Below, piece by piece: positions 3,658-23,391 of a stretch of DNA of 64,000 nt. The notes under the pieces are model-generated. The model did not search any database. It was not told the DNA's origin and worked only from the letters and a program-made list of their open reading frames with translations. The DNA is taken from the NCBI GenBank assembly GCA_015660865.1, contig JACTUA010000002.1, forward strand, positions 186,548-250,547, in the 5' to 3' direction. Positions within the stretch are counted from its first letter, which is position 1; each line of letters begins with the position of its first letter. Position numbers and translations under genes: made by a program. This DNA is from Methanomicrobiales archaeon. Lineage in GTDB: Archaea > Halobacteriota > Methanomicrobia > Methanomicrobiales > JACTUA01.

Positions 3658-5125
<1,468 letters not shown>

Positions 5126-5344: not shown

Positions 5345-8296
<2,952 letters not shown>

Positions 8297-8380: not shown

Positions 8381-8452
8381 GCCAAGGTGGCGGAGCGGCC
8401 ACGCGGCTGACTGCAGATCAGCTCAACTCCGGTTCAAATCCGGACCTTGGCT
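8381..8452 (+). tRNA. tRNA-Cys (GCA)
   Basis: The acceptor GCCAAGG/CCTTGGC closes a full cloverleaf. The anticodon stem is GCTGA/TCAGC with loop CTGCAGA (GCA), and the discriminator is T, a tRNA-Cys identity base. It lies between 23S and 5S, a common position in methanogen rRNA operons. Confidence 0.96.
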
Positions 8453-8565: not shown

Positions 8566-8692
8566 GGTGATAGCGGCCATAGCAGTCGGGAAACACCTGG
8601 ACCCATTCCGAACCCAGCAGTTAAGCCGACTCACGTAGTATGCGGTACTGAGGTACGCGAGTCCCCGGGAACCATACCTCGCTGCTATCACC
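8566..8692 (+). rRNA. rrf: 5S ribosomal RNA
   Basis: The terminal helix GTGATAGCGGC/GCTGCTATCAC encloses typical archaeal 5S elements (CCCATTCCGAACCC, then AGTTAAGCC). The ends are approximate by a few bases. The last 42 bp plus flank (8657-8698) recur exactly at 10250 and 11160; see the degenerate copies. Confidence 0.93.
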
Positions 8693-8698
8693 TTCCTT
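8657..8698 (+). repeat. 5S 3'-end direct repeat, copy 1 (candidate attachment site)
   Basis: This 42-bp stretch (GCGAGTCCCC... to ...CACCTTCCTT) is identical at 10250-10291 and 11160-11201. Identity with the third copy extends left to 47 bp (8652-8698 versus 11155-11201). It covers the 3' end of 5S plus six bases. Confidence 0.9.
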
Positions 8699-8818
8699 CT
8701 TATAACGGTATTTACATCAATCAAAGCAATTTTCAAATATATCTCTGACCCTTAGTTCAAACCGAATCAAGAATTCCATCCAAAATCTTATGCCAGTATA
8801 AGTTATAAATTTCAAAAA

Positions 8819-10153
8819 ATGGCTGAAAATGAAATAAATTTGGATGGACTCGATGGATTTCAATTTGAAGAATTAATTGCCAAAATAATGAAAAAGCAAG
8901 GCTTTCAAAATATTCGAGTTACTTCAAAAACGAGGGATTTAGGCCGAGATATTATTATGGAGACTCCAGACGGAAATATTATTTTAATTCAATGTAAGCA
9001 TCAACAATTCGTCGGTAGACCCGTAGTTCAAAAATTGCAGGGAGTAATAAGCTATGAAGAGTCCAGACATCCTCGTAAATCAATTTCCGGAATGATCGTT
9101 ACCTCAGGTAGTTTTTCTCAGGATGCAATTGATTATAAAGAGCAAATTCGCGAAAAGATAGGATTTATTGATGGCAAACTATTGAGAGATATCTGCAAAG
9201 AATTGAATATCATAATCATAAGTGGAAAAATCCAAATTCTCATAGATACGTCTTTTAATAATATTTCCGAAGATAAATCCAAATCGATTACCCTCGATAA
9301 ATTTCATAAAATATATGGAAATGAATACCATAAGCCGAAAGTGGCATCAAATGTCATGTTTTTTCCCTCTGTTTACATCGCTTATAATGTCAATTTCGAT
9401 ACATACACCCAGGTTGGATGTATTGATAAATATTCATCATCTGGACGAATCATGCTGGATGGGGTCACCGGTAAATTCGTTACTGATGATATCAAAAAAT
9501 TCTACTGTGACGATATTCAAAAACGAGAAGAAATCCAACAACATGATCGAGATAAGAAAATTCATTTCGAATTTACCGAGAATGATATCGAGGATGATGT
9601 ATTTAATTATGTTATAAAAAATCACACTCATGATGTACATTACCGGGAAAAAAACAATGTTACGTACAAAAAAACCTGTGTTCCAAAAAGGCGAGATATT
9701 GATATCTTAGAATTTTTACCGATATACTTGCCAATATGGACAAATGACCTCAATGTCAATCAATCAATGAAATATCAACAAAAATTCTACAATAAGGGGA
9801 ATAATCAACTGTTCATTTTAGATGAATTAAAAATTTGTCATATTTGTGGAATGAAAAGGTCTGAATATGAAAATATGAGCCTCTGTAAAGTATGTGGTGG
9901 AATCGTGTGTCCAAGCCATATTAAAATCGATTATTTGGATAAAAAAACGCCTGTTTGCACGAATCACGCTATAGCGCTTAGATTATTTATTCAAAATAAG
10001 TATTTTTCAAACAAAGAAAATTATTCAAAATACCACCAATGGTGGAAATCGGTTAAGTTTACGAGACAATTATATGAGGATAAAATCGCTTTGGGGTTAA
10101 TAATCGCGGGAATTATTCTTACCTTGATAATGGTCATCTTTTATATCATTTAA
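8819..10153 (+). CDS. Mrr-like restriction endonuclease with zinc-binding and membrane-anchor C-terminus
   Basis: Putative PD-(D/E)xK nuclease. Residues about 10-120 match the Mrr catalytic domain: FEELIAKIMKKQGF with E18, GRDIIM with D44, and LIQCKH with Q58/K60. The middle part is unassigned. Residues about 335-385 carry paired CxxC and CxxH motifs (CHICG, CKVCG, CPSH, CTNH), a likely zinc ribbon pair. The last 20 residues are a hydrophobic helix, so the protein may be membrane-tethered. The gene is strikingly AT-rich against a GC-rich chromosome, showing recent acquisition. It lies between the 5S gene and a degenerate 5S copy. TATA-like GTATAAG (about 8795) lies about 25 nt upstream of the ATG, suggesting a leaderless transcript. 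No methylase partner is seen, so it is probably a type IV-like or other defence nuclease. Confidence 0.75.
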   Translation: MAENEINLDGLDGFQFEELIAKIMKKQGFQNIRVTSKTRDLGRDIIMETPDGNIILIQCKHQQFVGRPVVQKLQGVISYEESRHPRKSISGMIVTSGSFSQDAIDYKEQIREKIGFIDGKLLRDICKELNIIIISGKIQILIDTSFNNISEDKSKSITLDKFHKIYGNEYHKPKVASNVMFFPSVYIAYNVNFDTYTQVGCIDKYSSSGRIMLDGVTGKFVTDDIKKFYCDDIQKREEIQQHDRDKKIHFEFTENDIEDDVFNYVIKNHTHDVHYREKNNVTYKKTCVPKRRDIDILEFLPIYLPIWTNDLNVNQSMKYQQKFYNKGNNQLFILDELKICHICGMKRSEYENMSLCKVCGGIVCPSHIKIDYLDKKTPVCTNHAIALRLFIQNKYFSNKENYSKYHQWWKSVKFTRQLYEDKIALGLIIAGIILTLIMVIFYII

Positions 10154-10170
10154 ATTCATAACACCTGACT

Positions 10171-10298
10171 CCCAGTCGGCCCTGATCCTTCTGGTCCACG
10201 AACCCGCCTGTTTCGCTCAGCCCACGTGGTGTCCTGATCCTGATATCCAGCGAGTCCCCGGGAACCATACCTCGCTGCTATCACCTTCCTTTCGTTCT
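10171..10298 (+). pseudogene. Degenerate 5S rRNA copy 2 (3' end intact)
   Basis: The last 42 bp match the true 5S 3' end exactly (10250-10291). The left part is only recognisable in patches such as CCAGTCGG, GAACCC and CCACGTGG. From 10250 to 10298 it is identical to copy 3 over 49 bp, including flank TTCGTTCT not found after the functional 5S. It separates the nuclease gene from the toxin-antitoxin pair. Confidence 0.8.
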
Positions 10299-10321
10299 GA
10301 CGATGCTTTTTGAAGGTCAAT

Positions 10322-10340
10322 AGGATTTAGCAGAAATCCT
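10322..10340 (-). terminator. Hairpin at the 3' end of the hepT gene
   Basis: AGGATTT (10322-10328) pairs with AAATCCT (10334-10340) over a 5-nt loop, overlapping the hepT stop codon. No long T-run follows, so termination is uncertain. Confidence 0.3.
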
Positions 10341-10689
10341 ATGTCGTGAGCAATTCCTTGATCTCGCGGGATAAAAGCGGGAGATGTGTCTCGATGATGC
10401 CCCATACAACTTCATCGGAGATACTGGCATAACCATGGATAAGCCGGTTCCTGAAGGAGATAACCTGTCTGGTATTGCTGATCTTCTCTGAAAGGCTCGG
10501 TTCCTGCTGGAGCGCCTGGTTCAGAGCCTCGCCGATGATCTCGAACTGGCGTTCGACCGCAGACCTGAGCAGGGGATCCCTCTGGTAATCCCCGAATGTC
10601 TTCCCTGCAGTGAACTGGATGACATAGTCGCAGGCTTCGCTGATGTCAAAGAGATACTTCCGGATATTACGAGGCAGCAGGGGCAGCAT
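10339..10689 (-). CDS. hepT: HEPN-domain toxin HepT (DUF86)
   Basis: Putative RNase toxin of a HEPN/MNT module. The 116-residue all-helical protein carries RNRLIHGY (R80, H85, Y87), an exact RX4HXY motif. In characterised HepT/MntA pairs this is the RNase active site, and its Tyr is AMPylated by the antitoxin (family knowledge). The start is taken at the ATG at 10689 (MLPLLPRNIR), overlapping the upstream mntA by 23 nt, which implies translational coupling. The gene pair is framed by 5S-derived direct repeats at 10250 and 11160. Confidence 0.88.
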   Translation of the reverse strand: MLPLLPRNIRKYLFDISEACDYVIQFTAGKTFGDYQRDPLLRSAVERQFEIIGEALNQALQQEPSLSEKISNTRQVISFRNRLIHGYASISDEVVWGIIETHLPLLSREIKELLTT

Positions 10690-10987
10690 AGAGTACGACC
10701 TGCGATTCCTCGATGGATTCCCGGAAGTATGGATTGCGGATAGGGCCCGGTTCAATGAGATCCACGGGTTTTTTCAAGAGATCTTCAAGATCTGCCAGGA
10801 GGCCAAAGTACTTCTCGGCGTGCTCTGCCGGAGACATCTTTTTGAACTCCACAATCATGTCAAGGTCACTTGCCGAGGGATCGAAGGATTTTCTGGTCGC
10901 CGAACCGAATATGGCCAATTTTTGGACGCGATACTTCCGGCAGAGCTTCATTATCCGAGGGATATTGTTCTTAATAATTGAATGCAT
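10667..10987 (-). CDS. mntA: MNT-domain nucleotidyltransferase antitoxin MntA
   Basis: Minimal nucleotidyltransferase (106 aa) that neutralises HepT, in known systems by AMPylating it. The motif FGSATRKSFDPSASDLDM contains the GSX11DXD signature (G28, S29, D41, D43) and a third acidic residue D76 in VDLIEP. The ATG at 10987 is preceded by the ribosome site GGAGG five bases upstream. An in-frame upstream extension reaching 11095 lacks such a site and runs toward 5S-derived sequence, so it was not used. It is the first gene of the two-gene unit. Confidence 0.88.
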   Translation of the reverse strand: MHSIIKNNIPRIMKLCRKYRVQKLAIFGSATRKSFDPSASDLDMIVEFKKMSPAEHAEKYFGLLADLEDLLKKPVDLIEPGPIRNPYFRESIEESQVVLYAAPAAS

Positions 10988-11081
10988 TCGAATCCTCCGA
11001 TTTACTCCCGGTATTCCCTTAAGGAAGATAGTCATTGAAAGATGATATGATTTTCTCGGACCCGAGTAGATCGGCTTGGCC

Positions 11082-11208
11082 CCCAGTCGGGTCACATCCT
11101 CTGACTCCGAACCCGGCGAGTATCAGCCCGACTCACGTGGTATGCTGTCCTCTCGGTACGCGAGTCCCCGGGAACCATACCTCGCTGCTATCACCTTCCT
11201 TTCGTTCT
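11082..11208 (+). pseudogene. Degenerate 5S rRNA copy 3 (3' end intact)
   Basis: This is better preserved than copy 2: CCAGTCGG, CTCCGAACCC, CGACTCACGTGGTATGC and then an exact 47-bp match to the 5S 3' end (11155-11201). The 5' quarter of 5S is missing. The right flank TTCCTTTCGTTCT is shared with copy 2 and may be the original sequence downstream of the rRNA operon. Confidence 0.8.
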
Positions 11209-11387
11209 TCTGAGGATCGTTCCGAACTTTTTGCACCCGTTCAGCGTTTCCTATCTCCTCATATCTTCCCATAACCATTTATCAGAAGAGACCCAATATC
11301 TCCTCACGAAACAGCGAACCGGTCATCCTCTTTTCGATGATTCTTCATCAGGGCAGGGAATGGATCAGGTTCCCTGGAAGTGAATCC

Positions 11388-12722
11388 ATGAAGACTGCAT
11401 CCTTCACCGATTTGGCCCTCTCCCACGAGCTGCAGCGGGCCATCGCGGACCTCGGGTTCGAGGAGCCGACCCCGATCCAGTCCCTTACGATCCCGGTCAT
11501 CCGCTCAGGGAAAGACGTCATCGGCCATGCCCACACGGGTACCGGCAAGACCGCGGCCTATGGCATCCCGCTCCTGGAGGGGATCGATCCCCATAAACGG
11601 ACCATCCAGGCGCTGGTCCTTTGCCCGACGCGGGAGCTCGCCATCCAGGTCTCTGAGGAACTGACAAAGCTCGCGAAGCACCGGAGAGGCATCACCATCC
11701 TCCCGGTGTACGGCGGCCAGTCCATGGACCGGCAGCTCTCGGCCCTCGCACGGGGCGTCCAGGTTGTCATTGCCACTCCCGGCCGGCTTCTCGACCACAT
11801 CAGGCGCCGTTCCATATCCCTCGATGAGGTGAAGTACGTGGTGCTCGACGAGGGGGACGTGATGCTCGACATGGGCTTCATCGAGGACATCGAGGCGATC
11901 CTCGCCCGGACGCCGAGGGGGCGGCAGACCGTTCTCTTCTCGGCGACAGTCCCTGATACGATCCATGACCTCTCACGCCGCTACATGCGCGATCCAAAGA
12001 TCATCAGGGTGGTCCACGAACGGCTGACGGTCCCGGGTGTCGAGCAGCGGTACTACCAGGTGAACGAGCAGGAGAAGCTCGACGTCCTGGCCGACCTTCT
12101 CGAGGAGTTCGACCCGAAGCTCTCCCTTATCTTCTGCAACACGAAACGCAGGACGGATGCGCTCGCCCGGCGCCTGCGTGCCCGGGGGTACCCGGCCGAC
12201 AAGCTCAACGGGGACATGACCCAGGGGCAGCGGGAACGGGTCATGGCGAAGTTCCGGCGGGGGGAGATCGGGGTGCTCGTGGCTACCGACGTCGCTGCCA
12301 GGGGCATCGACGTGGAAGGGATCGATGCGGTCTTCAACTACGACGTCCCGAATGACCCGGAGTATTACGTCCACCGGATCGGGCGCACAGCCCGGGCAGG
12401 GAAGGGCGGACGGTCGTTCACCCTCGTGACCGGGATGGATGCCGGGAAGATCCGGGATATCCAGCGGTATGCAAAGATTACCATCGGGGAACAAGCCGCA
12501 CCTGTCCGGGGACCGGCACCTGTCGTAACCGGCACCCTGCCGGATGAGATCCGGACCTTGATCGAGAAGGGCGATCTCGGGCCCTACAGGTCCCGGATCC
12601 AGCGCTGGATCGAGGAGGGCCACACCTCCCTCGACATCGCGGCGGCACTCCTTGCGGTTACCGAATCTGCCCCGGAAGGGGAGATGGGTACCGCCAGCCC
12701 TTCGAGGAGAAGAATCCACTGA
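11388..12722 (+). CDS. DEAD-box-type ATP-dependent RNA helicase (DEGD variant)
   Basis: RNA unwinding or remodelling enzyme. All superfamily 2 motifs are present: a Q motif (PTPIQ, residues 27-31), motif I AHTGTGKT (48-55), PTREL, motif II, SAT (185-187), a C-terminal RecA domain with VATDVAARGIDV, and HRIGRTARAGKGG. Motif II reads LDEGD (residues 153-157) instead of DEAD. A short C-terminal segment follows (about residues 385-444). The ATG at 11388 was chosen because it begins at the usual FTDLAL start; an in-frame ATG at 11337 would add 17 residues without family support. A T/C-rich tract after the stop may terminate it. Confidence 0.93.
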   Translation: MKTASFTDLALSHELQRAIADLGFEEPTPIQSLTIPVIRSGKDVIGHAHTGTGKTAAYGIPLLEGIDPHKRTIQALVLCPTRELAIQVSEELTKLAKHRRGITILPVYGGQSMDRQLSALARGVQVVIATPGRLLDHIRRRSISLDEVKYVVLDEGDVMLDMGFIEDIEAILARTPRGRQTVLFSATVPDTIHDLSRRYMRDPKIIRVVHERLTVPGVEQRYYQVNEQEKLDVLADLLEEFDPKLSLIFCNTKRRTDALARRLRARGYPADKLNGDMTQGQRERVMAKFRRGEIGVLVATDVAARGIDVEGIDAVFNYDVPNDPEYYVHRIGRTARAGKGGRSFTLVTGMDAGKIRDIQRYAKITIGEQAAPVRGPAPVVTGTLPDEIRTLIEKGDLGPYRSRIQRWIEEGHTSLDIAAALLAVTESAPEGEMGTASPSRRRIH

Positions 12723-22247: not shown

Positions 22248-23165
22248 TTATGACTCGTCCTTCTTCGAGAGGGGGAAGTAGTCGCGATAGACCTTCTTCC
22301 GTTCTTCCACGTCGGTATGGAGGTAGATCTCCGTGGTCTTGATGGAGGAATGGCCCAGGTTCTCCTGGACGACCCGGAGGTTACGGGAACGGGTGTAGAG
22401 CTCGCTCGCATAGCTGTGGCGGAGCTTGTGGGGGGTGATCCCCGCCGGCGCGTACTTCCTGAAGATGAACTGGATGGTTCTCGGGGAGATGGGGTTGCCC
22501 ATCTGGCCGGGGAAGAGGGGGCCCTCCCTCCTCTCCCCCGCGAAGCCCCGGATATCGTCGAGGGTCTCCCCGTCGATGAACACGGTCCGGATCTTCCCGC
22601 CCTTCCCCTTCACCCGGATGGTATGGCCCTCGAAGTCGATATCCTCCAGCCGGATGCCGGAGAGCTCCGAGACCCGGACACCGGTTGCATAGATGGTCCT
22701 GACGATGAGCCGGTCCCTGGTATCAGGGATGGAGGCGAGGAGATCGAGGACCTGGCTGTGCTTCATGTAGATAAGCTCCTTCTCCTTCACCCTGGGCCGC
22801 TCGATGGCAACGAGGGGGTTGGAATCGACCGCCTTCTGGGCATAGAGGAAACGGTAGAAGGAGGAGAGGGTGGAGATGATTCTGTGGAGGGTGCGCGGCC
22901 GGTAGCTCCGCAGCGAGGAGAGGAACGAGAGGAAGTCGGTGACAAGGGGCACGGTCACCCCGATCTCGGTATCGAGCCGGGCTGATGCAAGATCCTTCCA
23001 GTAGAAGATCAGCTTCCCGGGTTCGCTATGGCGCCTCAGCCAAAGGTACCGTGCAAACCGTCCAATGATCTCCTCATAGCTCTCGATGGTCCTGTCAGAG
23101 TAGTTCCGCATCCGGAGGTAATACCGGTACCGGGGGATCCACTCCGAAAAAAGACCATTTTCCAT
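22248..23165 (-). CDS. xerA: Tyrosine recombinase, XerA-type
   Basis: Site-specific recombinase of 305 residues that probably resolves chromosome dimers. An N-terminal SAM-like core-binding domain (about residues 1-120) precedes the catalytic domain with R164 (TGVRVSELSG), a Lys in GKGGK, H246 and R249 (HKLRH), H272 (LGHSS) and Y281. The ATG at 23165 lies about 28 bases after TTTATTTA, consistent with a leaderless transcript; longer in-frame starts extend into the promoter. It is the only recombinase seen here, 11 kb from the 5S repeats, and nothing ties it to them. Confidence 0.9.
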   Translation of the reverse strand: MENGLFSEWIPRYRYYLRMRNYSDRTIESYEEIIGRFARYLWLRRHSEPGKLIFYWKDLASARLDTEIGVTVPLVTDFLSFLSSLRSYRPRTLHRIISTLSSFYRFLYAQKAVDSNPLVAIERPRVKEKELIYMKHSQVLDLLASIPDTRDRLIVRTIYATGVRVSELSGIRLEDIDFEGHTIRVKGKGGKIRTVFIDGETLDDIRGFAGERREGPLFPGQMGNPISPRTIQFIFRKYAPAGITPHKLRHSYASELYTRSRNLRVVQENLGHSSIKTTEIYLHTDVEERKKVYRDYFPLSKKDES

Positions 23166-23391
23166 GTCCAGAATTATGAATAGCCTGCTAAATAAAGTTT
23201 TGCGCAGAATAGACATTCTGCGAAAGATCTCGATCCTCCCCTGGTCCATGCCAGGGAGGGATCATGGAACAAGTCAGACTGAGTCAAGGGAGCTCCTGTC
23301 ATCTCCAGTTCTATAAATTATTGCTAGCTCACCCATACTTGAGCGCACCGTTCCCACCGCGAGACCGCGAGGCTTCGTCCAGCTGGTTTCA

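Follow-up and report, generated by a model that had tools for sequence, protein, structure and literature searches.

Several described systems bear on how repeated RNA-gene ends and variable genes come to lie behind a ribosomal RNA (rRNA) operon. In Methanomicrobiales, two operons of Methanospirillum hungatei are reported to carry two 5S copies each (PMC2686161). In SAR11, rRNA genes have been proposed as recombination anchors in hypervariable region 2 (HVR2), where 48 kb of surface genes lie between 23S and 5S (PMC2217521), and the recombination borders have been placed outside the rRNA operon (PMC4033161). Gene conversion, which keeps copies identical, has been measured between the rRNA operons of Escherichia coli (PMC8022953). 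Here we consider a stretch of 64,000 nucleotides (the window, G000:C9:186548-250547) from the 1.94-Mb, nine-contig genome of a Methanomicrobiales archaeon, in which a 42-bp block from the 3' end of the 5S gene recurs twice downstream, framing an Mrr-type nuclease gene and a HepT/MntA-like gene pair. We argue, with moderate confidence, that this is a tandem 5S array that has fallen into decay and received genes between its copies, while its 3' block was kept identical.

As in M. hungatei, more than one 5S sequence follows a single rRNA operon, but the extra copies are beyond recognition by Rfam and have genes between them. As in HVR2, where the rRNA genes concerned are 5S and 23S, variable genes adjoin rRNA genes, although the cited part of the HVR2 report mentions no repeated 5S end (PMC2217521). 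The locus also resembles the integrative elements found at tRNA 3' ends, inasmuch as the cargo is framed by a repeated RNA-gene end, with an exact repeat at the far border; unlike them, it has no integrase, the order of the flanks is wrong and the far border includes upstream gene sequence. The features in question, in window coordinates, are as follows.

3658-5125: 16S rRNA gene of the archaeal rRNA operon
Listed between 16S and 23S: tRNA-Ala gene of the operon
5358-8282: 23S rRNA gene of the operon
8381-8452: tRNA-Cys gene of the operon
8569-8690, plus strand: functional 5S rRNA gene (copy 1; Rfam RF00001, 93.9 bits), holding the start of the 42-bp block (8657-8698)
8691-8712, plus strand: flank of the functional 5S gene, of the type found at the 5S genes of other genera
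8819-10153, plus strand: Mrr-type nuclease gene, 444 residues, 32% guanine plus cytosine (GC) (Pfam Mrr_cat, 7e-22)
10156-10305, plus strand, ends approximate: copy 2, a decayed 5S unit with the block at 10250-10291
10339-10755, minus strand: HepT-like gene (Pfam HepT-like, 4.7e-21)
10667-11095, minus strand: open reading frame (ORF) of an MntA-like nucleotidyltransferase (Pfam NTP_transf_2, 2.5e-12; PADLOC PDC-S09), the true start of which is probably the ATG near 10990
11070-11218, plus strand, ends approximate: copy 3, a decayed 5S unit with the block at 11160-11201
11337-12722, plus strand: DEAD-box helicase gene to the right of copy 3, homology to family members starting near 11254-11268

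The repeated gene end and its flanks

The block, which comprises the last 34 nucleotides of the 5S gene (gene end at 8690 according to Rfam) and 8 nucleotides of flank, is repeated exactly at the three positions, and copies 2 and 3 are identical across 49 bp, just as an earlier, sequence-only reading of this DNA had claimed. That reading had also proposed to look for further copies; a scan of the whole genome for a 36-nucleotide core with up to 3 mismatches found three places only, namely, the three copies, and the reversed pattern had no match. Rfam detects a single 5S gene in the genome, which is copy 1, and at E <= 1 finds nothing within 10100-11300, where copies 2 and 3 are located. Within the window, a model of the 3' half of 5S detects all three copies and a model of the 5' half detects the real gene only.

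The similarity to 5S does not stop at the block. Upstream of it, copy 3 aligns with the 5S gene with a local score of 79 (maximum of 1000 shuffles, 50.2) and copy 2 with a score of 49.4, barely above its shuffle maximum of 47.4 (1000 shuffles); the two copies align with each other with a score of 63.8, which was reached by none of 1000 shuffles. Similarity over the whole gene length is clear, then, for copy 3, and for copy 2 it is marginal against 5S and clear against copy 3. When the three sequences are aligned over the portion of 5S that precedes the block, 85 columns are ungapped (8 gapped columns were excluded). All three sequences agree in 34 of these and all differ in 7; only copy 3 matches 5S in 21 columns and only copy 2 in 5; and in 18 columns the two copies agree with each other against 5S. 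Because these 18 shared changes exceed the 5.4 expected under independent decay (P 6e-6; a more generous rule gives 1e-3), copies 2 and 3 appear to descend from an ancestor that had already decayed. The block itself shows no change at any of its 42 positions, as compared to 46 and 30 changes in the 85 upstream columns of copies 2 and 3, respectively (Fisher 3e-11 and 9e-7); something, therefore, has kept it identical. Thus, the earlier description of perfect 3' ends behind decayed 5' parts stands, but not its reading of them as displaced gene ends only, since 5S-like sequence continues upstream of the core. Neither decayed copy folds better than its shuffles (z 0.73 for copy 2 and -0.25 for copy 3; the functional 5S, z -1.69), so that the folds do not support the structured recombination sites of an integron-like cassette array, for which no attC search was made.

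The flanks permit a direct test of the proposal that each insertion entered at the 3' end of the 5S gene and restored that end. Entry of this kind would place a foreign flank on the functional gene and leave the native flank on the last copy. The opposite is observed: nucleotides 9-28 after the functional 5S gene match the 5S flanks of other genera with a score reached by 2 of 500 shuffles (best match L216, followed by L165 and L065; flanks from the organism's own family are absent from the best matches), whereas the scores of the flanks of copies 2 and 3 were reached by 249 and 476 of 500 shuffles. The native-type flank belongs to the functional gene, not to the last copy.

Tandem 5S genes and intervening genes in relatives

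Of 61 genomes, 51 have a 5S gene above the Rfam cut-off (G001 has no assembled 5S); 60 stretches were taken and, after exclusion of five contig-end stubs, 55 were searched for further copies of their own 5S. A second full-length 5S within 1 kb is present in 10 of the 55 (in one, L051, the first copy is cut by the contig end), partial 5S remnants are present in four (L049, L050, L072, L080), and a perfect repeat of the 3' end only is found in none. Among further stretches of family f5, two nearly full-length 5S genes lie within 1 kb in 8 of 20 (7 genomes). In the named genomes, a 5S-end pattern search yielded nine stretches, all from Methanoregula or Methanoregulaceae. Two loci have still longer arrays at a spacing of about 200 bp, with three (L178) and five (G167:C1:706224-707087) tandem 5S copies. 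Intact tandem 5S genes, which the sequence-only reading had regarded as pointing to decayed duplication, are thus present in relatives, albeit not at the same locus.

Remnants of 5S that lie outside full-length genes mostly score better in their 3' half (L172, L221, L222 and L164 at 10485 are exceptions that retain 5' sequence); the reversed-sequence control gave no match at E <= 1. The general excess of 3' over 5' halves across 185 genomes proves little, being favoured by contigs that end inside rRNA operons and by loci L161-L180 having been fetched mainly for extra 3' matches. Several candidates were likewise set aside: the 3'-end-only matches in G188, G025, G077 (contigs 17 and 20) and G179:C106 are at contig edges and are probably cut-off genes; the apparent split in the 5S of G158 is a run of N; and a breakpoint that several Methanoregula-like genomes share at 5S nucleotides 21-25, weighed as a possible target site, shows graded decay and, by eye, no shared element end.

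Methanoregula-like genomes have genes located among 5S copies of three kinds: intact, split and decayed. These loci were chosen for extra 3'-half matches and so show existence, not frequency, and most of the genomes are metagenome bins in which misassembly is possible. In G181 (L165), two intact 5S genes are followed by 3 kb carrying genes for a FilR1-like regulator and a UbiA-like protein and then by a 5S copy that is below the Rfam cut-off but identical to 5S from about nucleotide 35 to the 3' end. In G206 (L164), the same regulator (85%) follows the second 5S, but the two 5S genes are separated by 2.2 kb that include a nitroreductase gene and an ORF resembling endonuclease V. To the left of this cargo, native spacer continues into 5S nucleotides 1 to about 25; to the right, the last 34 nucleotides of a 5S are followed by native spacer, the right fragment scoring above all 939 control windows. 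Because 5S fragments and native spacer occur on both sides, a middle 5S copy was apparently split by this cargo, and the comparison of G206 with G181 supports the earlier reading to the extent that displaced 5S pieces can form cargo borders. The same locus has a lone 5' fragment of 5S (nucleotides 4-35, at 10468-10516) about 3.7 kb behind the second 5S. In G202 (L161), the order is 5S, a weaker 5S, 3 kb of cargo, a decayed 5S and a RibD-like gene. RibD follows 5S by 193 bp in L072 and by 386 bp in L230; among 39 f5 loci, the stretch includes RibD in 13, at distances of 193 bp to 11.9 kb from the last full 5S upstream of it, and lacks it in the other 26. These distances indicate that gene content beside the rRNA genes differs among relatives, as in an rRNA-flanked variable island. 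The view of the locus as an insertion site for defence cassettes holds in so far as foreign genes collect behind 5S, both here and in relatives; the relatives' cargo is not defence-specific.

The cargo genes and the neighboring helicase

The identification of the cargo as an AT-rich Mrr-like gene and a HepT/MntA pair is borne out by Pfam, PADLOC and base composition (GC 0.32 in the first block and about 0.5 in the second, against 0.60 in the window). Both blocks were probably acquired. Among the 184 genomes searched, 25 others contain relatives of the HepT protein (57-68% identity across 106 residues or more), and these are scattered across other families; in the organism's own family, G002, G004 and G006 have no match and G005 has weak matches only. 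In the 55 5S stretches HepT has a single weak match, at 30%, which lies 11.3 kb along L069. MntA had no match in the seven helicase loci searched. A scan of the genome contigs yielded no relative of the Mrr protein, and the best one among 199 genomes of the order, in G034, is 30% identical; by eye, the nuclease domain of this protein (8819-10153) precedes an extended part that contains cysteine pairs, and the C-terminus is hydrophobic. With a 5S-end model (R1), neither the flanks of the five top-ranking HepT relatives, out of 25, nor those of the 11 listed Mrr kin loci (L095-L105) yielded a 5S end. In the flanks searched, nothing links the kin of the cargo to 5S.

The helicase to the right of copy 3 has kin in 7 of the 10 other family members searched. 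DNA similarity to G001, G009, G002 and G007 starts at window positions 11268, 11254, 11264 and 11264, respectively, and upstream of the helicase the contigs of these four contain no 5S piece or window cargo. Because the upstream DNA of these family members is without 5S and has other ORFs, the meeting of helicase and 5S appears to be specific to this lineage, and the two were probably brought together by rearrangement. In G025 (L076), a helicase 53% identical to this one is encoded on the opposite strand 0.7 kb downstream of 5S; this speaks against a recent meeting and for an old link, which the family members do not show.

How the array may have arisen

The scenario that we favor starts with duplication of the 5S gene behind the rRNA operon. 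The extra copy would have lost its function, decayed and then been duplicated itself; the AT-rich Mrr gene would have been inserted between copies 1 and 2 and the HepT/MntA pair between copies 2 and 3, entering by ordinary recombination at a site where insertions cost little. Gene conversion with the functional 5S, which is probably what kept the 3' block identical, would have reset this block repeatedly, with sequence near the cargo edge escaping. It is preferred as the keeper of the block because it has been measured among rRNA copies and is expected to fade near unrelated cargo; unlike the E. coli case, it would here act on a 42-bp block shared by one gene and two pseudogenes, and it is assumed. 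While the order of events, the conversion and the route of insertion are what we infer, the full-length similarity, the shared decay, the native-type flank of the functional gene and the tandem 5S genes with intervening cargo in relatives are observations.

A number of points weigh against this scenario. Copy 2, taken alone, hardly beats its own shuffles in comparison with 5S. Decay is uneven along the gene, so that gene conversion or selection is needed in addition: under neutral decay alone, 42 bp could not have stayed intact. Related cassette ends would likewise fit the decay that copies 2 and 3 have in common. In those members of the organism's own family in which 5S was assembled (G004, G005, G008), it is present once. 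Finally, the left 5S fragment of G206 does not, by itself, stand out from its control (score reached by 16 of 958 windows); what gives it weight is the unbroken alignment with the spacer.

Among the alternatives, import anchored by homology would have brought in DNA with a 5S piece that recombined through the conserved 3' end of the resident 5S, the decayed parts coming along. The deviating GC content of both blocks, the scatter of HepT kin across other families and the proposal of rRNA genes as anchors of SAR11 islands (PMC2217521) are in its favor; the lack of a 5S end in the flanks of the HepT and Mrr kin that were searched, and 5' parts that have decayed, unlike those of a functional donor 5S, make it unlikely.

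Site-specific insertion at the 3' end of 5S would require an integrase, lost or acting in trans; the gene would be restored by the end of the cassette that comes in, and copies 2 and 3 would be displaced ends. This would account for two unrelated blocks framed by an exact repeat and for poor 5' parts with perfect 3' ends. We nevertheless hold it to be quite improbable. The flank test contradicts it, and so does the 5S similarity upstream of the core, which marks the copies as decayed 5S units; the absence of a perfect 3'-end-only repeat from the 55 stretches of relatives, and of a 5S end from the HepT relatives tested, also counts against an attachment site. No integrase ORF is present in either block, in agreement, on ORF and Pfam scans, with the sequence-only reading. 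The genome has three Phage_integrase matches, two on contigs 8 and 4 and one in the window (22248-23249); because a match of this size and score recurs in most genomes of the set, the latter ORF is probably the chromosomal Xer recombinase. When the integrase matches listed for the 61 genomes were compared by eye with 5S positions, one lay within 5 kb downstream of a 5S (G021, about 4.1 kb), and it adjoins tRNA-Cys.

The G021 locus (L261; reverse strand, at 4.1-14 kb counted from the end of the contig) offers a probable example of a tRNA-end element within the Methanomicrobiales, with an integrase gene directly behind tRNA-Cys and then further ORFs. We take these to resemble Cdc6 and type I restriction genes; the locus is probably a tRNA-targeting element with defence genes.

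Site-specific insertion might find support in the 452-residue tyrosine recombinase of G199 (L163, 6442-7800), the start of which is about 140 bp downstream of a decayed 5S, but its 86% relatives in G181 (L182) and G201 (L183) have 1.5-kb flanks without a 5S match (an 89% copy in G199:C37 is at a contig end and was left out of this comparison). One degenerate 5S-end pattern had no match in viral contigs. In the open-access literature, searched by titles and abstract starts, with subscription papers outside the search, we recognized no description of a 5S 3'-end attachment site; PMC3479022 and PMC8813620 did not bear on the question.

Passive docking, whereby cassettes made of a gene and a 5S-like unit, devoid of their own recombinase, enter and leave the array through the 42-bp block by host recombination or an enzyme acting in trans, is very unlikely in our view; if it took place, the shared decay of copies 2 and 3 would mean that the cassette ends belong to one family. 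That the 3' block was kept by selection, because it terminates transcription or serves as a processing signal, instead of by gene conversion, seems highly unlikely: copy 2 directly follows the Mrr stop codon and its 3' end can form a GCGAG/CTCGC stem followed by a T-rich tract, but shuffled sequences fold equally well (z 0.34), the genes on either side of copy 3 are divergent, which leaves a terminator on the plus strand with no gene to end, and terminator function does not require 42 identical bases.

Taken together, these observations suggest that a pseudogene that keeps a perfect gene end while the rest decays imitates an attachment site, so that, where a scan infers an integration site because the end of an RNA gene is repeated, both the flank and the DNA preceding the repeat need checking. 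For the organisms themselves, redundant 5S genes can make the end of the rRNA operon a landing strip for acquired genes.

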